In this document: positions 11,207 through 49,759 of the stretch, in pieces | Layout of the letters: every line of letters begins with the position of its first letter | Numbering within the stretch: position 1 is the stretch's first letter | Origin: Sulfuricurvum sp. PD_MW2 | GTDB lineage: Bacteria > Campylobacterota > Campylobacteria > Campylobacterales > Sulfurimonadaceae | DNA length: 53,326 nt | Direction: 5' to 3' | Assembly (NCBI RefSeq): GCF_002633015.1 | Contig: NZ_NSIU01000013.1 | Location: 1-53,326 of the forward strand | Notes under the pieces: generated by a model | Seen by the model: the letters and a program-made list of their open reading frames with translations, nothing else | Database searches by the model: none | Told to the model about the DNA's origin: nothing | Program-made: the position numbers and the translations under genes

Positions 11207-11222
11207 TGCATATGCTATTCTC
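11207..11222 (-). promoter_or_regulatory. Sigma-54-type element for Cys-rich gene
   Basis: Minus strand GAGAAT-AGCAT-ATGCA. The -24 G and the -12 GC are in the same register as in the nifH and nifB elements. It lies between the trpB stop and the 73-aa gene. Confidence 0.6.
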
Positions 11223-11236
11223 AATTGATTGAAATT

Positions 11237-31583: not shown

Positions 31584-31668
31584 ATAAATTCCCCTTTTTT
31601 TCACCATTTAGTTATATTGTATACAAGAATAACTGAATTTAATTAAGTACTATCACAAAAGTTAGTTC

Positions 31669-31684
31669 AAGAATAAAAATTGCA
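31669..31684 (+). promoter_or_regulatory. Sigma-54-type element of NifX-like unit
   Basis: AAGAAT-AAAAA-TTGCA. Predicted start about 31695, 22 bases before the ATG. Confidence 0.65.
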
Positions 31685-31716
31685 TTTCCTATTCGAGAGT
31701 AAAAGGAGTTTCGATC

Positions 31717-32157
31717 ATGATCGTTGCCATACCGCTGGATGCAAAAGAGAGAGTCTATCATAACAATCCGTGTGCGTGTACGATGTTCTCTTTGTACGAA
31801 GTGATCGGAAATCGCAAAGACATTCGGTATCGTCACATCGAAACACGTCTCAATCCATGGGAAAAGTATGCCGGTGATATGGTCAAAGATCCAAAAATGA
31901 TGGCGTGCGAATGCGAAAGTACATTGGCTCAAAATCCCCACCATATCAGCGAACACTACACACTGCTACAGGCAATCGGCAAATGCAATACTCTCATCGT
32001 AGATCAATATTGTCTCAATACCCTCTATGCGATGAAAAATGTCGGAATCAAACTCCATAAAATTCCCCCTTTTATCAAAACAGCTACTGCAGCGATCGAG
32101 CATTTCGTGATCGGAACGGAGATTGCCGAGCATCTGCGTTACATCCATCCGGCATAA
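31717..32157 (+). CDS. NifX/NafY-type FeMo-cofactor-binding-like protein
   Basis: A 146-aa protein with the Di-Nase_FeMo-co (PF02579) outline: it opens MIVAIPLDAKE, has a Cys pair in NNPCACTMFSLYEV, then KYAGDMVKDPKMMACECES and a C-terminal half AIGKCNTLIVDQYCLNTLYAMKNVGIKLHKI equal to the family's cofactor-cradle region. Six Cys are scattered, more than is usual in NifX. It would carry or store NifB-co/FeMo-co intermediates. SD AAAGGAG precedes the ATG. It heads a unit with the Tpx-like gene (11-base gap). Its promoter element shares register with nifH. Confidence 0.82.
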   Translation: MIVAIPLDAKERVYHNNPCACTMFSLYEVIGNRKDIRYRHIETRLNPWEKYAGDMVKDPKMMACECESTLAQNPHHISEHYTLLQAIGKCNTLIVDQYCLNTLYAMKNVGIKLHKIPPFIKTATAAIEHFVIGTEIAEHLRYIHPA

Positions 32158-32675: not shown

Positions 32676-32706
32676 ACGAAGGTGACATTTTTGTCCCTTC
32701 TGTGTT

Positions 32707-32722
32707 AAGAATGCAAAATGCA
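32707..32722 (+). promoter_or_regulatory. Sigma-54-type element of SIR2-clpP-clpX unit
   Basis: AAGAAT-GCAAA-ATGCA. Predicted start about 32733, 22 bases before the ATG. It is almost identical to the element at 48604-48619. Confidence 0.65.
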
Positions 32723-32754: not shown

Positions 32755-33585
32755 ATGGACACCATGATAGAGACAATCAAAAAAGAGTTGCGTAACCAAA
32801 GCACCATCCCCTACTTCGGTTTGGGTGTGTTTGAGGGAATAACGACAAAAGAGGGAGAAAGCGTTCCACATGACAGCGATTCCCTCATATTGGCGATGAA
32901 CGCTGGCAGAGCTATGGCACCGCGTCTGATGTATGAATACTCACGTGCCGCAATGCATTTGGAACAGCGTCGTGGGGTTGAGTATATGACCCAGCTTATC
33001 AACCACATCTATACCAAACCTTTTGAGCCGACCCCCCTTCACAAGGCGATCATCGATATGTCCCCGCGCTATATCATCGATACCAACCGCGATACTTCAT
33101 TCCAAGAACTTCTCGCCTATACACCGCATTGTCTCATCATCGGGAAATCGCGCATCATGGGCAACGATTACCGCTATGAGGTGTATGAATACGACGTCGA
33201 AAACCAAAAATACTTTTTGGTAGACGAAGAGGTATTGGAGACTGCCCAAAAAATCCTCTTTAAACCGATGGGTTCCCCGCTCCCTAATCCCAGCTTTGTT
33301 ATTAGCGATGCCGACTATGTCGACTGGCTCACCGAAGCGATGGGGGGATTTGCGGTGCCCAAAGTGCTCAAAACCTACCGAAAAGCAAAAAAATACCTCT
33401 TTTTAGGGACATTTTTCGATCGTGATACCGACCGTATGGTGGCAAACGAACTCTCCCTTGATTTGGAGGGGGGATACGTCATTACTGACAAAGAACTCGG
33501 AAAAAAAGAGAAAAAGTTCATCGACAAACACCATCTCGAGGTGATTCAGATGTCATTACCCGAATTTATCAAAGCATTCATCTAA
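32755..33585 (+). CDS. SIR2-like nif-cluster protein
   Basis: A 276-aa protein resembling the SIR2-like family found beside nif genes in other diazotrophs: IPYFGLGVFEG (the family has YxGPGV), a segment of paired prolines and Arg/Ser (APRLMYEYSRAAMHLEQRRG), EPTPLHKAI and RYIIDTNRDTSFQELL. The Rossmann fold would bind NAD or a nucleotide. The normal sirtuin catalytic His/zinc site is not evident, so enzymatic deacylation is not claimed. Function in nitrogen fixation is unknown. AAAGGGG precedes the ATG; clpP follows after 12 bases and clpX after that, with one upstream sigma-54-type element. Confidence 0.75.
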   Translation: MDTMIETIKKELRNQSTIPYFGLGVFEGITTKEGESVPHDSDSLILAMNAGRAMAPRLMYEYSRAAMHLEQRRGVEYMTQLINHIYTKPFEPTPLHKAIIDMSPRYIIDTNRDTSFQELLAYTPHCLIIGKSRIMGNDYRYEVYEYDVENQKYFLVDEEVLETAQKILFKPMGSPLPNPSFVISDADYVDWLTEAMGGFAVPKVLKTYRKAKKYLFLGTFFDRDTDRMVANELSLDLEGGYVITDKELGKKEKKFIDKHHLEVIQMSLPEFIKAFI

Positions 33586-35419: not shown

Positions 35420-37681
35420 TTATTGTAACTTCTGCATTACCAGATCATTGACAACTTGAGGATTTGCTTTTCCTCCGCTCACTTTGAGTACCTGCCCGAC
35501 AAAGAATCCGAACAGTTTTGTATTACCCGCTTTGTATTTTTCGACATTGTCGGGGTTTTTTGCCATGACATCATCAATGATCGGCAAGATGATCGCAGGA
35601 TCACTGATTTGCACCAGTCCCTGTGCTTCGACGATTTGAGCCGGGTTATCACCGCTTTGCACCATCGCTTCAAATACCTGTTTGGCGATTTTGTTGGAGA
35701 TGATCTCCTCATCGATCATTTTCACCAACTCAGCAATCTGCGCAGGGGTGAATTTCAGCTCATTAGCCTCTTTTTCTTTGAGTTCACGCGCCACTTCGTT
35801 GGCGACGATATTCGCGATGGTAATCGGGCTGTTATGGATAGAAAGAGCCGCTTCGTAAAAGGATGAGAGTTTCTCATCGCGTGCAAGAGTATTCGCCACT
35901 TCACTATTGAGTTTCAGTTCATTTGTGTATTTGTCAAATCGAGCCTGTTCTGCTTCGCTCATCGGGGCTACTTCACCCTCGATATGGACTTTTTTCTCCG
36001 GTGCTTTGCGCTCTGTTTTGGCTGCACCCTCGTCCGCTTTGTTCTTTTTGTTCCATGAGTCTTTGAGTCCGACAATTTTGTTGAATACCGGATGTTCGTC
36101 CGTGTAATCGATCGGATCGGCATAAAAATACCCCTGACGCTCAAACTGGAAACGGACGTCCGGTTTCTCGGCGATGAGAGCCGGCTCAACCAGAGCATTT
36201 TTGATGATTTTGAGCGACTCAGGATTGAGATCTTCGATCCCTTCCGGTGCTTCGCAGGTATAGAGACGATCATAAAGTCTGACCTCGACCGTTTTAGCGG
36301 TAGTTGCTTCGACCCATTGGATTGCACTTTTGACCTTGATACCGCTCGTATCGGAACCGCTTTTGGAGTCGGGATGGTACATCGCGATGATCTCGGTGAT
36401 ATTTCCCTGTTCGTCTTTGATCACCTCTTTGCAGGTGATGATATAGGCGTGTTTGAGTCTTACTGGCTGTTCCGGTGTGAGGCGGTAAAAGCCTGCTGGC
36501 GGATTCTCGCTGAAATCGTCGCGCTCGATGTAGATCTCACGGGAGAACGGAAGTTTTCGTGAACCCTCTTTCGGTACGTCTTCAGGGTAGTACGAAGCGT
36601 CTAGTTCTTCGTTCCCCTCGTAATTTTCAATCGTCACTTTGAGCGGGTCGAGGACACACATGACGCGCGGTACTTTGGTGTTCAGATCATCGCGGATGCA
36701 GAATTCGAGCTGTGCGACATCGACCATCGAGTTGGCTTTCGCGATACCGATTTGATGACAGAAATTGAGGATCGATTCGGGGGTATACCCGCGTCGGCGC
36801 AATCCCGCGATGGTCGGCATTCGTGGGTCATCCCATCCACTGACGTAGTTTTCGTTGACCAGTTCGAGGAGCTTTCGTTTACTCATGACGGTATAGTTGA
36901 TCCCCAAACGTGCAAACTCATGCTGATACGGGCGCGGTGATGTCAGCCCCAGCGTATCGAGTACCCAGTCGTAGATGTCGCGATTGTTTTCAAATTCGAG
37001 GGTACAGATCGAGTGAGAAACCCCCTCGATGTAGTCGGAGAGGCAGTGTCCGTAATCGTACATCGGATAGATATGCCATGCATCCCCCGTGCGGTAGTGA
37101 TGGGCGTGACGGATGCGGTAGAGGAGCGGATCGCGCATCTTCATGTTCGCCGCACTCATATCGATCTTGGCACGCAGGACGTGCTCTCCATCTTTGAATT
37201 CACCGTTTTTCATCCGCTCCAGCAGATCGAGATTTTCTTCGACGCTCCGCTCGGCATAGACACTGCGGCGACCGGGTTCGGTCACCGTTCCGCGATATTC
37301 ACGGATCTCCTCTTCGCTCAAGCTGTCGACGTAGGCTTTGCCCATTTTGATGAGCTGTTTTGCGTATTCGTAGAGTTCAGGGAAATAATCGGAGGTGTAG
37401 CGAACATTCCCCTCCCATTTGAAGCCAAGCCATTCGACGGCGTCTTTGAGTGCTTCGACGTAGCGGGTATCTTCGGTCGTCGGGTTGGTATCGTCCATCC
37501 GCAAGTTACAGTGACCGTTGTAGTCGCGTGCGATACCGAAGTTGATCGCGATCGATTTGGCGTGTCCGATGTGGGGGAAGCCGTTTGGCTCAGGGGGGAA
37601 GCGTGTCACGACCTCGTTATATTTGTGTGCTTTTATATCTTCTTCGACGATGGTGCGTAAAAAATCTTTGCTCTCGTTCAT
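35420..37681 (-). CDS. glnS: Glutaminyl-tRNA synthetase fused to YqeY domain
   Basis: A 753-aa class I synthetase. Rossmann catalytic core has the HIGH motif PEPNGFPHIGHAKSI and the KMSKS-like MSKRKL. Anticodon-binding beta-barrels follow to about 550. The C-terminal ~190 residues form a GatB/YqeY domain (helices ending KVSGGKANPQVVNDLVMQKL) that aids tRNA binding. Most Campylobacterota, to my knowledge, make Gln-tRNA through GatCAB, so a GlnRS-YqeY fusion is unusual for the lineage. TATAAT is at 37734-37739. It is placed between clpX and the accessory patch. Confidence 0.95.
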   Translation of the reverse strand: MNESKDFLRTIVEEDIKAHKYNEVVTRFPPEPNGFPHIGHAKSIAINFGIARDYNGHCNLRMDDTNPTTEDTRYVEALKDAVEWLGFKWEGNVRYTSDYFPELYEYAKQLIKMGKAYVDSLSEEEIREYRGTVTEPGRRSVYAERSVEENLDLLERMKNGEFKDGEHVLRAKIDMSAANMKMRDPLLYRIRHAHHYRTGDAWHIYPMYDYGHCLSDYIEGVSHSICTLEFENNRDIYDWVLDTLGLTSPRPYQHEFARLGINYTVMSKRKLLELVNENYVSGWDDPRMPTIAGLRRRGYTPESILNFCHQIGIAKANSMVDVAQLEFCIRDDLNTKVPRVMCVLDPLKVTIENYEGNEELDASYYPEDVPKEGSRKLPFSREIYIERDDFSENPPAGFYRLTPEQPVRLKHAYIITCKEVIKDEQGNITEIIAMYHPDSKSGSDTSGIKVKSAIQWVEATTAKTVEVRLYDRLYTCEAPEGIEDLNPESLKIIKNALVEPALIAEKPDVRFQFERQGYFYADPIDYTDEHPVFNKIVGLKDSWNKKNKADEGAAKTERKAPEKKVHIEGEVAPMSEAEQARFDKYTNELKLNSEVANTLARDEKLSSFYEAALSIHNSPITIANIVANEVARELKEKEANELKFTPAQIAELVKMIDEEIISNKIAKQVFEAMVQSGDNPAQIVEAQGLVQISDPAIILPIIDDVMAKNPDNVEKYKAGNTKLFGFFVGQVLKVSGGKANPQVVNDLVMQKLQ

Positions 37682-37733
37682 TGCTCTAAAACCTTCTGAA
37701 TCGTTTAAAATCGTATTTTATCAAATAAGTCCA

Positions 37734-46026: not shown

Positions 46027-46425
46027 TCACCCTACTTCTTGCAATGCATCAGGCTCTTCTTGAACCAGTTTGCCTACCCCTCGATCACAAAGGGCGATAT
46101 CTTCCCGATAGCTTTTTTCTTTGTATATCGGTGATTTAAGTGTTCCCTCTTTGCTAACACCGAGTTTGTAGATGGTTTCGTTACGAAAATGTTCATCAAA
46201 AGATGCTATGAAAGGCATATCCCACGTAATACATCCGATACTCGGACAAATCGCAGCACACTGAGGATCATCGTAAATGCCGACACACTCAACACATTTT
46301 TCTGGTTGAACGTAATATTGTTTTTTCCCGATCGGATTTGCGAAATCATCTACAATAGCATTGACAGGGCATTGCTGCAAACACGCATCACACGTAATAC
46401 AAGTATCGTTGATAATAACAGCCAT
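46027..46425 (-). CDS. 2[4Fe-4S] ferredoxin, nif type
   Basis: A 132-aa ferredoxin with CITCDACLQQCP (first cluster) and KCVECVGIYDDPQCAAICP (second cluster with the insert typical of FdxB/FdxN). A C-terminal extension of about 65 residues contains YREDI. It would supply electrons to NifH or to NifB maturation. It follows the NifX gene by 3 bases and is the last gene of the minus-strand unit from 48551. It is paralogous to the ferredoxin at 46819. Confidence 0.9.
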   Translation of the reverse strand: MAVIINDTCITCDACLQQCPVNAIVDDFANPIGKKQYYVQPEKCVECVGIYDDPQCAAICPSIGCITWDMPFIASFDEHFRNETIYKLGVSKEGTLKSPIYKEKSYREDIALCDRGVGKLVQEEPDALQEVG

Positions 46426-46428
46426 GAG

Positions 46429-46806
46429 TTACTCCTTATCTTTGGAAGTGTGAACAATACGCAACAGCCACGGCGGCGGATTGCCCAATAATAGTTCTTG
46501 GAGCTTTGTGACCGTTTCATCGATTCGATCATTGTCTCCCGAACGCATCGGATGTATTTTAGATGCCAAGACCATTTTTGAAGCGGTCGGTCCGATTTGT
46601 GAACAGTACAGTATGTCCGCTTCTTTGATCGTATCGATCTTGTAGGCAAGTTTCTCATGCTCATCGGCGATATCATCTGCTGAACTGTCTAATGTTTTGA
46701 TATATTCAGCACACTCGGCCGTGATTCGATATAACTCAAAACTCTTGGACCAGCCGAAATGCTGATTGATATGAGAGCCATCACTTGATGCGAATGCGAT
46801 AAGCAC
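46429..46806 (-). CDS. nifX: NifX-family FeMo-co-handling protein
   Basis: A 125-aa Di-Nase_FeMo-co domain. It opens IAFASSDGSHINQHFGWSKSFELY (the NQHFG motif of NifX/NifB C-domains), with ADILYCSQIGPTASKMVLASKIHPM. It binds NifB-co or VK-cluster and passes it on. Between two ferredoxins; spaced 3 and 12 bases from them. The C-terminal 30 residues are an extra helix. Confidence 0.88.
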   Translation of the reverse strand: MLIAFASSDGSHINQHFGWSKSFELYRITAECAEYIKTLDSSADDIADEHEKLAYKIDTIKEADILYCSQIGPTASKMVLASKIHPMRSGDNDRIDETVTKLQELLLGNPPPWLLRIVHTSKDKE

Positions 46807-46818
46807 GATACAATCCTT

Positions 46819-47193
46819 TTAGACAACTATTGCTTCGCGTGCTTCACGTGCCGCAATCGAGATATCTTCACGAAACGTCTGCGGAGCTACTTCCGGAGTC
46901 AATACACCCCGTTTTTTCGATTCTCCGATAACATATTCTGAACTGTTGACATAATAGTCATTGAACTCTGCCGTATACGGCATATCCCAAACAATACACC
47001 CCTCTGTTGGACATTCTGCAGCACAGGCCGGAGTCTCTGCATGACCCACACACTCAATACATTTTTCCGGTTTGACATAGGTATATTCCCAATCTCCGCG
47101 CGGTGAATCCCCTTCGCTCACGATAGCACCTACAGGACACACTTCGATACAAGCATCACAGTTAATACATAAATCCGTAATCATTACAGCCAT
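46819..47193 (-). CDS. 2[4Fe-4S] ferredoxin, nif type
   Basis: A 124-aa ferredoxin: CINCDACIEVCPVGAI (first cluster) and KCIECVGHAETPACAAECP (second cluster with insertion). C-terminal extension with TFREDISIAAREAREAI. It differs from the one at 46027 in its insertion and tail but shares the same plan, so a tandem duplication with a NifX in between. SD AAGGAG precedes the ATG. Confidence 0.9.
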   Translation of the reverse strand: MAVMITDLCINCDACIEVCPVGAIVSEGDSPRGDWEYTYVKPEKCIECVGHAETPACAAECPTEGCIVWDMPYTAEFNDYYVNSSEYVIGESKKRGVLTPEVAPQTFREDISIAAREAREAIVV

Positions 47194-47203
47194 TTTTTAC
47201 TCC

Positions 47204-47650
47204 TTACGTGGCTTTGTATAATCTCTCTGTGCATTTTTCGTACGAGGCAGTATCCAAAAGCGGGGTAAGCTTGATATCGACCGCTCTGAGCAACAACGTC
47301 ACATTGCATCCCTCGCACAGCTCCATCCGCTCGAATGCATCGGTCGTAATCAGCGAGTTGAGTTTCCCGCAAGGGGTTTCAACACTCACTTCACTCAGCA
47401 CACTACCCTTACGAAAATGTTGCAATTCTCCGCTGATGTGATTTTCGATCGAAACACTCCCCTCTTTGGTTCCGGTACAAATCGCAATGGCCGCTTCTTG
47501 GATACTGCATTCGACCTCATCGCCTACACGAAGCCATTTAGGCGATTTAGTCTTGAGAAGTTTTAAATCCATATTATTTGCCCGAACGGTAATACAGCTG
47601 AAAAACTCATCGCTTTTGATCGCTTCGACTTTTGCACTAAACGTATTCAT
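47204..47650 (-). CDS. Tandem TOBE (molybdate-binding) protein
   Basis: A 148-aa protein made of two TOBE/Mop-like domains (MNTFSAKVEAI to AAIAICTG and NHISGELQHFRKG to LLRAVDIKL). Family knowledge: di-Mop proteins store or sense molybdate. It would feed molybdenum to FeMo-co or regulate Mo uptake. No DNA-binding domain is attached. It lies 10 bases upstream of the ferredoxin gene in the minus unit, so molybdenum handling is tied to nif expression. Confidence 0.8.
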   Translation of the reverse strand: MNTFSAKVEAIKSDEFFSCITVRANNMDLKLLKTKSPKWLRVGDEVECSIQEAAIAICTGTKEGSVSIENHISGELQHFRKGSVLSEVSVETPCGKLNSLITTDAFERMELCEGCNVTLLLRAVDIKLTPLLDTASYEKCTERLYKAT

Positions 47651-47660
47651 GAAAGACTCC

Positions 47661-48551
47661 TTACCAGAGATAAATCACAATTTTTTTATCTATAACACTC
47701 TCAAATTGCTCTAAAATCATCCCAGCCGTCGAGGTGGGTCCCAAATGACATCCCGAACATGCACCCAAATAACGAAGCCAAATCTCAGGGGTATCACCAC
47801 CGATATAGTGCACCAATTCTACCCCTCCGCCGTCACTGGCAAGAATAGGTGCGAGATTTTCAGTAATGATCGATTCGATCTTGGCACGTTGAGATGATTC
47901 ATCCATCATTCGAAATGCGACATTTATGTCGTTCGCCGTCGATTGATTGCTCACATAGGTCAAAAGCGAATGCGCTTGGGACTCTCCTGCATGCGCAGCA
48001 CGGATCATCCATTTCATCGATTCATACACATCATCGTTTCGGAGTAAAATTCCCAATTTGAGCTGAGCGGTTGGCATATTCGCCTCAGCGGCAACAGTGT
48101 AATAGCGGATCGATTCTGATTTGGAAGCATTGACCCCAATAGCGTTTTCATACATCCCGCCCAGATAGAACGATGCTACTTCATGCCCTTGTTCAGCAGC
48201 ACGGTTAAATAGCGCAAATGCCGTTTCTATGTTTTTCGCTACACCGAAACCTTTGACGTACATCGTCCCCAGATTGACCATCGCATCGGTATCGGTACTA
48301 CTCAGCCTCTCCCAAATAGCTTTGGCTTTTGGATAATCTTTTGCATCGTAAGCGAGAATCGCCGTCTCCATCAATGATTGTGCTTCCATCTTCTTCTCCT
48401 GATACCGTTTTAAATTGTTTCGCAAATCGGCCATAGCTTCATCATAAGTTTCTCCGAACCCCTTTACTTCAGGGATATCGCAGCTGTATATCTCATAGCC
48501 GTCTCCCTCTTCATTACTGAAATAGTGATAATGCGTTCGTAATTCATCCAT
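47661..48551 (-). CDS. HicB-like / Sel1-repeat / NifU C-domain fusion
   Basis: A 296-aa protein of unusual build. Residues 1-55 resemble a HicB-type partial RNase-H fold (HYHYFSNEEGDGYEIYSCDIPEVKGFGETYDEAMADL). Residues about 60-210 hold Sel1-like repeats (YPKAKAIWERLSS, AFALFNRAAEQGHEVASFYLGGMY, SIRYYTVAAEANMPTAQLKLG). Residues about 225-296 form a NifU C-terminal domain with CSGC at Cys265 and Cys268 (LGACSGCHLGPTSTAGM). It could deliver an Fe-S cluster to a partner bound by the repeats. First gene of the minus unit; sigma-54-type element at 48583-48598. Confidence 0.85.
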   Translation of the reverse strand: MDELRTHYHYFSNEEGDGYEIYSCDIPEVKGFGETYDEAMADLRNNLKRYQEKKMEAQSLMETAILAYDAKDYPKAKAIWERLSSTDTDAMVNLGTMYVKGFGVAKNIETAFALFNRAAEQGHEVASFYLGGMYENAIGVNASKSESIRYYTVAAEANMPTAQLKLGILLRNDDVYESMKWMIRAAHAGESQAHSLLTYVSNQSTANDINVAFRMMDESSQRAKIESIITENLAPILASDGGGVELVHYIGGDTPEIWLRYLGACSGCHLGPTSTAGMILEQFESVIDKKIVIYLW

Positions 48552-48582: not shown

Positions 48583-48598
48583 TGCAAAGAGCGTTCTA
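48583..48598 (-). promoter_or_regulatory. Sigma-54-type promoter of NifU-fusion unit
   Basis: Minus strand TAGAAC-GCTCT-TTGCA, identical at both conserved blocks to nifH and nifB. Predicted start about 48572, 21 bases before ATG 48551. Confidence 0.75.
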
Positions 48599-48603
48599 AG
48601 GGT

Positions 48604-48619
48604 AAGAATGGAAAATGCA
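48604..48619 (+). promoter_or_regulatory. Sigma-54-type element of NifX-like plus-strand unit
   Basis: AAGAAT-GGAAA-ATGCA, 5 bases from and divergent to the element at 48583-48598. Predicted start about 48630, 25 bases before ATG 48655. Confidence 0.65.
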
Positions 48620-48654: not shown

Positions 48655-49050
48655 ATGATTGCTATTCCGATCGAAAAAGGGACACACGATTCGATGAGTA
48701 CAAAACTCTTCGGTAATGCACCGTTTTTTGCACTGATCGATCCGCATACCAAAATACCGAAAATCGTCTCCAACGAAGGATGCGGGAACGGTATCAAAAC
48801 AGCAAATTTTCTTGTACAGCTTGGAGCAACCTCAGCACTTTATGGCTATTTGGGCGATGGCCCCTTTTATGTCATGGTACGTGAGGGGATGCGCGTCTAT
48901 TGGCTGGGAAAAGAGCCTATGCCTCTAGAGCAAGCGATCACCATAGCACTAGAGGGTAATTTGATTCAGGTAACTCCCGACAACGCGTCTGCCTATCTCG
49001 ATCCCGGAACCAGTTCCGGCGAATGCGAATGCGGATGTTCCCATGCGTGA
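48655..49050 (+). CDS. NifX/NafY-like protein with Cys tail
   Basis: A 131-aa Di-Nase_FeMo-co-type protein. It opens MIAIPIEKGTHDSMSTKLFG, with VSNEGCGNGIKTANFLVQLGATSALYGYLGDGPF, and ends in a Cys-rich tail GECECGCSHA. The body matches the NifX fold; the CxCxC tail may bind a cluster. Start 48655 is chosen because AAAGGAGC lies 4 bases upstream; the frame opens 105 bases earlier without SD. It is divergent to the NifU fusion. Its last 8 bases overlap the next gene. Confidence 0.82.
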   Translation: MIAIPIEKGTHDSMSTKLFGNAPFFALIDPHTKIPKIVSNEGCGNGIKTANFLVQLGATSALYGYLGDGPFYVMVREGMRVYWLGKEPMPLEQAITIALEGNLIQVTPDNASAYLDPGTSSGECECGCSHA

Positions 49051-49267
49051 AATCATCACCGGCGAAATGGAAGAGATTCGCAGATTGATCCTTGAAACCG
49101 TAGCCAAGCGTAATGCGTTGAAAACTGAAATGGCATATTGGTATGAGACCAATGCGACACGTTTCAATCGGAGTAACGAACTCATTACGCTGGATTCAAC
49201 CCTCAGTGAGCTCGACAGCCATTATAAACGGCTCTGGGACTACCACAACACAACCAAAGCATCTTAG
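49043..49267 (+). CDS. Short coiled-coil protein in nif unit
   Basis: A 74-aa all-helical, charged protein (EEIRRLILETVAKRNALKTEMAYWYE and STLSELDSHYKRLWDYHN). It overlaps the NifX-like gene by 8 bases. No known nif family (not NifT, NifW or NifZ by motif) is recognised. Likely a small partner or assembly factor. Confidence 0.7.
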   Translation: MREIITGEMEEIRRLILETVAKRNALKTEMAYWYETNATRFNRSNELITLDSTLSELDSHYKRLWDYHNTTKAS

Positions 49268-49276
49268 GAGCAACTC

Positions 49277-49759
49277 ATGAATGAAAACATCCGAAACGAT
49301 ATTTTAAAACAGGCAAAATCGGCATTTGAACGGGCATGCACATTACGCGAAAATGAACGGCTCGAAGTCTATCTCTATGACGGTGTCGTCAAAACGAGCG
49401 ATGTATTGAGCGAAGATGAAAAAATGCTCTACAGCCCCAACCGCATTCTTTGCTATCAAGTGTGGGGACATGATTACCTAGAAGAGGAGATCCGCGCATG
49501 GATAGATCAAGCCCGTCTGGAGATGAATCCAAAACCGCTCGAAGAGAGTATTGTTGAAACCGCTGCCAAAGTGGCTGTGGCAAAAGGACTAACCCCCGAA
49601 GAGATCAGCTCATATGAAGTGTTTGCAAATTTAACGATGGATCAGTTAGAACAGATCGAGCATGCAATCATCGAATACTGGTGGGACAACAAAGAGATAG
49701 AAAATGCCAAATCATTGGCACTCCATCAAATCAACGAAGCACTTCAATCGTTGAATTAA
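49277..49759 (+). CDS. Unknown helical protein in nif unit
   Basis: A 160-aa soluble protein with helical N-terminus (ILKQAKSAFERACTL), a tight beta segment (RLEVYLYDGVVKTSD) and helices to the end (TPEEISSYEVF, MDQLEQIEHAIIEYWWDNKE). One Cys only. SD GGAGC precedes ATG, 9 bases after the previous gene. No recognised family. It is the last gene of the plus-strand unit, converging by 4 bases with a two-helix membrane gene. Confidence 0.7.
   Translation: MNENIRNDILKQAKSAFERACTLRENERLEVYLYDGVVKTSDVLSEDEKMLYSPNRILCYQVWGHDYLEEEIRAWIDQARLEMNPKPLEESIVETAAKVAVAKGLTPEEISSYEVFANLTMDQLEQIEHAIIEYWWDNKEIENAKSLALHQINEALQSLN

Follow-up and report, generated by a model that had tools for sequence, protein, structure and literature searches.

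We identified in Sulfuricurvum sp. PD_MW2 a gene whose 296-amino-acid product fuses a HicB-type N-terminal domain to Sel1 repeats and the C-terminal (Nfu) domain of NifU. We lean towards a function as an Nfu-type iron-sulfur carrier dedicated to nitrogenase assembly, with the Sel1 repeats as a docking module. This reading draws on an invariant CxxC motif, the occurrence of the gene, among the genomes searched, only in those with nifB, its location in a block of NifX, ferredoxin and FeMo-co-type genes, and a sigma54-type promoter element. The HicB-Sel1-NifU architecture is real and recurrent and, as far as the papers show, undescribed: no paper combining Sel1, NifU and HicB was found in the literature searched, where one paper brings together NifU, Sel1 and nitrogen fixation, and the available portions of PMC4674564, PMC3847290 and PMC12316311 do not describe the fusion. 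The gene lies in a 53,326-nucleotide stretch of DNA, here called the window, where its parts map as follows:

47661..48551, minus strand: whole HicB-Sel1-NifU gene, 296 aa (open reading frame, Pfam and homologue searches)
48390..48551, minus strand: HicB-type N-domain, aa 1–54, without the ribbon-helix-helix half (profile, fold, dN/dS 0.05)
47982..48374, minus strand: Sel1/TPR-like helical repeats, aa about 60–190 (Pfam Sel1, AlphaFold helices, Foldseek/VIA)
47697..47879, minus strand: NifU C-terminal (Nfu) domain, aa 225–285 (Pfam PF01106)
47748..47759, minus strand: CSGC (C265, C268), predicted cluster ligands (both cysteines invariant in 27/27 aligned members)

Domain architecture of the fusion protein

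A first-pass annotation of the letters alone had proposed the order HicB, Sel1 and NifU C-domain with CSGC, and our searches confirmed it. Two of the families exceeded their Pfam cut-offs in the full-length scan: Sel1 (PF08238; 55.6 bits, cut-off 30.7) matched in two stretches, the best at residues 89–123, and the NifU domain (PF01106; 38.1 bits, cut-off 27) at residues 225–285, with a score of 41.2 bits in the genome-wide NifU-domain search. No HicB family emerged from that scan, and the N-domain was placed by profile and fold instead. Matches to TPR and RIP were sub-threshold in Pfam. The AlphaFold model (mean pLDDT 87.4, 20 related sequences) runs from three strands and a long helix through helix pairs up to residue 187 (helices at residues 36–187) to a mixed C-terminal domain, and its middle part matches Sel1-repeat structures in Foldseek and VIA-align. 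In the NifU part, D240 and G242 are invariant in the 27 aligned members, as are the two cysteines of the CSGC motif (residues 265–268). The dN/dS ratios of 10 distinct Sulfuricurvum copies were 0.05 for the HicB, 0.10 for the Sel1 and 0.04 for the NifU part (dS near saturation), which argues that the architecture is more than chance and makes the NifU part the most constrained of the three.

In Nfu domains, a [4Fe-4S] cluster is carried between two CxxC motifs for delivery, and Sel1 repeats bind protein partners. The fusion has in common with NifU of the Azotobacter type (IscU, [2Fe-2S] and Nfu domains) the C-terminal Nfu domain with its CxxC and, probably, service to nitrogenase. However, it lacks the IscU scaffold and the ferredoxin-like middle domain, neither of which was found among the Pfam domains of the 296-aa protein, and carries Sel1 repeats and an optional HicB domain instead. 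Consistent with this, the model of NifU proper (TIGR02000) scored 22.7 bits against a cut-off of 273.3 and matched residues 206–280 only. NfuA and other Nfu carriers, including the chloroplast and mitochondrial proteins, also join the Nfu domain to another module. In NfuA this module is a degenerate A-type carrier domain, whereas in the fusion it is Sel1; the score against the NfuA model (TIGR03341) was 24 bits, below its cut-off of 269.35.

The HicB-type domain and a predicted internal start

Direct searches left the N-domain below the cut-offs. No HicB family was returned by full-length Pfam or NCBIfam scans of the 296-aa protein, and none was listed for 10 full-length homologues at E values up to 10. 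PF15919 gave an E value of 0.24, below cut-off, on residues 1–58 alone and was sub-threshold in 4 of 12 N-domains tested, and the HicB structure 6g1c matched the protein with an E value of 0.53. A 12-row profile of the N-domains run on 397 genomes retrieved 26 fused genes and, after these, only short free-standing genes whose open frames span 67–179 residues (best E 4.7e-13). Seven such places were fetched and six HicB candidates scanned; all six passed the PF15919 cut-off, and both upstream neighbours scanned were HicA toxins. Another profile, built from six N-domains of other lineages only and run on 14,478 frames, gave its next-best matches to N-domains from a second genus (best E 8.8e-5) and from Sulfuricurvum (best E 0.06), with noise starting at E 4.5. 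Modelled alone, residues 1–62 reached a pLDDT of 88.9, and HicB antitoxins took Foldseek ranks 1–6 (best E 0.06, TM 0.64; none under 0.001), followed at lower rank by dsRNA-binding folds. The profile route and the fold thus indirectly secure a predicted descent of the N-domain from HicB antitoxins.

The N-domain shares its fold and sequence line with the HicB antitoxins of HicAB modules (PF15919). The fusion differs from them in that the ribbon-helix-helix half is absent from the 296-aa protein, with Sel1 in its place, and in the lack of a HicA partner: PF07927 matched nothing anywhere in the genome, whereas it did find a match in 7 of 14 control genomes. The first-pass annotation had counted HicB as part of the design. 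The domain is indeed there, translated and constrained (dN/dS 0.05, at a near-saturated dS of 1.6), but it is not essential, since 27 of the 53 homologue-bearing genomes described below lack it and 26 have it. A 59-row tree, made by a quick method with long branches flagged and not read for the direction of each change, gave 10 changes in HicB presence by parsimony, at least 5 of them forced by starred branches. The HicB part has been gained or lost repeatedly within the family. No split HicB gene was found beside the HicB-less copies among 82 sequences (a set of 83 with one duplicate left out).

The junction between the HicB and Sel1 parts also contains the signals of a predicted second translation start:

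48396..48400, minus strand: AGGAG, predicted internal Shine-Dalgarno in the HicB/Sel1 junction (10/10 Sulfuricurvum HicB-bearing copies)
48387..48389, minus strand: codon of Met55, predicted second start (the Met with which HicB-less relatives begin)

AGGAG stands 6 bases before Met55 in all 10 distinct HicB-bearing Sulfuricurvum copies, with a predicted pairing to the 16S tail of -7.4 to -8.7 kcal/mol. At the first ATG the predicted pairing was -2.1 to -2.9 kcal/mol in nine of the copies and -8.2 in the tenth. Of 20 HicB-bearing genes drawn from three lineages, 19 had their best predicted site for an in-frame ATG at the junction Met, in a scoring that left out ATGs in the first seven residues. 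Glutamate codons in the 10 Sulfuricurvum genes are GAA (161) or GAG (81) outside the junction and all GAG inside it. A strong ribosome-binding site at the Met where HicB-less relatives begin suggests that the gene makes two isoforms, from Met1 and Met55. Such starts could yield a HicB-capped and an uncapped form, and the HicB domain, no longer tied to toxin or DNA, might serve as an optional cap for protein contacts or dimerisation. Tentatively, the two conserved starts would give uncapped Sel1-Nfu and HicB-capped carriers specific to nitrogenase, with the cap tuning the timing or the recipient of the clusters. If true, a conserved internal start would explain repeated HicB loss without breaking the gene.

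HicB antitoxins are regulators, and the fusion might likewise be a sensor or regulator in which Sel1 and HicB relay whether the Nfu domain holds a cluster, and so tune translation or a nif regulator. The resemblance of the N-domain model to dsRNA-binding folds and the two predicted starts fit this idea, which we nonetheless consider improbable: HicB here lacks its DNA-binding half, no HicA was found in the genome and half of the homologues do without HicB altogether.

Distribution of the family and linkage to nif genes

The carrier reading is favored by where the gene occurs. Among 397 Campylobacteria genomes, 53 have a homologue over the NifU-plus-repeat region, and a single-sequence search and a 27-row profile agreed on which 53. 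The weakest of them scored 172.7 bits with the profile and the next match, to Sel1 only, 114.1. The 397 genomes are of the same order, and no restriction of the family to Campylobacterota is claimed from them. Full-length nifB (490 bits or more, a line chosen after the list was seen) was present in 74 of the 397; a further 12 genomes over the curated nifB cut-off, mostly with 282-residue relatives matching the first ~280 positions, were not counted. All 53 homologue-bearing genomes were among the 74, and none of the 323 others had the gene (Fisher p about 5e-49, relatedness ignored). The gene was missing from 21 of the 74, mostly of one genus, so nitrogenase can do without it. Among plasmid relatives, 326 records matched, in no case over 80% of the query; the best, from Azospirillum, carries the plain annotation of a SEL1-like repeat protein. 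Two loci of the contig scan described below, a Sel1-only Desulfovibrionaceae sequence (L057) and a 22-residue fragment (L058), were dropped from all counts.

The genes around the fusion point in the same functional direction:

48655..49050, plus strand: divergent Nitro_FeMo-Co (NifX/NafY-type) protein, 131 aa (PF02579, 31.3 bits)
47204..47650, minus strand: next gene, molybdate-binding TOBE/Mop-type protein, 148 aa (Pfam, NCBIfam)
46819..47193, minus strand: 2x[4Fe-4S]-type ferredoxin (Pfam, NCBIfam)
46429..46806, minus strand: NifX (TIGR02663, 111.1 bits, cut-off 112)
46027..46425, minus strand: second 2x[4Fe-4S]-type ferredoxin (Pfam, NCBIfam)

All 42 loci had an open frame with the window NifX as its best match, in most cases at a distance of a few genes. 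These loci comprise 20 fetched regions and 22 from a contig scan of close relatives (24 loci, of which 22 are labelled Sulfuricurvum, Campylobacterales or Arcobacter); some come from near-identical genomes, and each neighbour is labelled by its best match within a set of just 20 window proteins. Sulfuricurvum relatives repeatedly show the order gene, Mop, ferredoxin, NifX, ferredoxin. In other families the gene adjoins NifD/NifK-like genes (about 25% identical), which are presumably NifE/NifN. Two small open frames (74 and 160 aa; 49043–49759) that follow the divergent FeMo-co-type gene matched neither a Pfam nor an NCBIfam family above cut-off and recur in most Sulfuricurvum-like loci.

Neighbours such as NifX and FeMo-co-binding-type proteins would also suit a cofactor chaperone or stabiliser of apo-nitrogenase, in the style of NafY or a NifX partner, in which Sel1 holds the partners, the Nfu domain is structural or a dimer interface and cluster binding is unimportant. 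Five short homologues (L024–L027, L034) that have little Sel1 and retain the NifU part are counted on the same side. We regard this alternative as rather unlikely, however, given the invariance of both CxxC cysteines in 27/27 members and the strongest constraint falling on the NifU part.

Promoter element and predicted regulation

Two sigma54-type -24/-12 elements lie back to back between the fusion and the divergent gene:

48583..48599, minus strand: element TTAGAACGCTCTTTGCA of the fusion gene (13.4 bits)
48603..48619, plus strand: element TAAGAATGGAAAATGCA of the divergent gene (20.1 bits)

The sigma54 sites of C. jejuni read GGaa-N6-tTGCTt (PMC3847290), and the DNA upstream of the fusion gene holds TTAGAACGNNNNTTGCA, which fits except for an A at the first G. 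A loose pattern picked up an element upstream of the homologue at 44 of the 50 loci, most of the misses having the gene within an operon; the mirror element of the divergent gene turned up at 42 of the 50. L020 and L031, both among the 44, are doubtful and did not enter the promoter matrix, for which 55 distinct sites were used and the window was excluded. The matrix replaced a search with TTAGAACGNNNNTTGCA allowing 3 mismatches (24 matches, 18.9 expected) and was also used instead of the pattern GRAYRNNNNNTTGCA, discarded as a motif.

Seven window sites scored 15 bits or more, against 0.6 expected in simulated sequence: 31668, 48603 (the divergent FeMo-co-type gene), 28693 (nifB), 11207, 31681, 32706 and 40010 (nifS). 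The element of the fusion gene scored 13.4 bits and that of nifH 11.0, both modest when taken alone; 1.6 sites of 13 bits or more are expected by chance, and the former is credited because of its position and conservation. Genome-wide, the promoter pattern had 20 matches (6 for the reversed control), 7 of them in the window, which is 2.4% of the genome. The genome encodes a NifA over cut-off and two RpoN proteins. TGT-N10-ACA, which we take to be the NifA-binding motif, was not enriched in the window (10 sites, 11.6 by chance). The conserved element, together with NifA and RpoN, agrees with the nif promoter that the first-pass annotation had assumed, and nif regulation of the fusion gene is well supported, though only predicted.

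Other nif-type elements accompany genes away from the fusion. Those at 31668–31684 (plus strand) and 31681–31697 (minus strand) overlap between a 936-aa open frame and a 146-aa open frame at 31717; they are face to face, unlike the back-to-back pair at 48583–48619. The element at 32706–32722 stands 32 bases before a 276-aa open frame (32755–33585), which may thus belong to the nif regulon without having been recognised as a member. A 17.9-bit element at 11207–11223, just after trpB, precedes a short open frame (83 aa from a TTG, shorter from an ATG that follows within a few codons). The second RpoN (L112; G000:C3, open frame 36400–37710) is downstream of NifE/NifN-looking open frames and a NifX-type protein, and a nif-type -24/-12 element (36388–36404, contig C3) lies just ahead of its likely start. 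This RpoN may be a nif-dedicated sigma54 that prefers AGAA over GGAA.

NifU genes elsewhere in the genome

The window contains nifS and no full nifU, as the first-pass annotation had noted, but the genome has two full NifU genes elsewhere. With a 98-residue Nfu, they make three further NifU-domain genes. One full NifU (contig C71) adjoins a NifS-like gene and is probably the housekeeping protein. The second (L003, contig C72) adjoins a PII-like gene and is probably the nif NifU; a nif-type element (L111; G000:C72:41486–41502) lies just upstream of its likely start, MARDTLIGG. With full NifUs elsewhere, one of them with a nif-type element, the job is not vacant, and the idea that the fusion replaces a missing NifU is abandoned.

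The same inventory raises the question of redundancy. A general stress-type Nfu placed among nif genes by chance, and redundant with NifU and the small Nfu, would be in keeping with the three further NifU-domain genes and with the 21 nifB genomes that manage without the fusion. We find this quite improbable in view of the absence of the gene from all 323 genomes lacking full-length nifB and of the conserved nif-type promoter element.

Proposed function

For the nitrogenase-dedicated carrier that we favor, NifA with a sigma54 factor would switch on the fusion gene, and one [4Fe-4S] cluster would be shared by the CxxC motifs of two copies of the protein. The Sel1 superhelix would dock on a nif partner, with NifX, the FeMo-co-type protein, NifEN, NifB and the neighbouring ferredoxins as candidates; which of them it binds is a guess. 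Docking would allow clusters made by NifU and NifS to reach that partner. Presentation of clients by the Sel1 repeats and predicted Fe-S binding by the NifU part are both plausible, and the targeted cluster delivery first proposed for this gene is reasonable. COA7 (7mqz), a Sel1-repeat assembly factor, likewise places a Sel1 superhelix in the setting of metalloenzyme assembly. It differs from the fusion in having no Nfu domain, and a fold common to both proves no common function.

The nif accessory genes of diazotrophic Campylobacterota have been little studied. The HicB domain of this one clearly illustrates the reuse of an antitoxin part in another setting, and the two-isoform design is directly testable through the conserved internal start. 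If true, an Fe-S carrier restricted to nif and equipped with a docking module would provide a handle on how nitrogenase assembly is supplied with clusters, which is of practical concern when nitrogenase is to be moved into new hosts.
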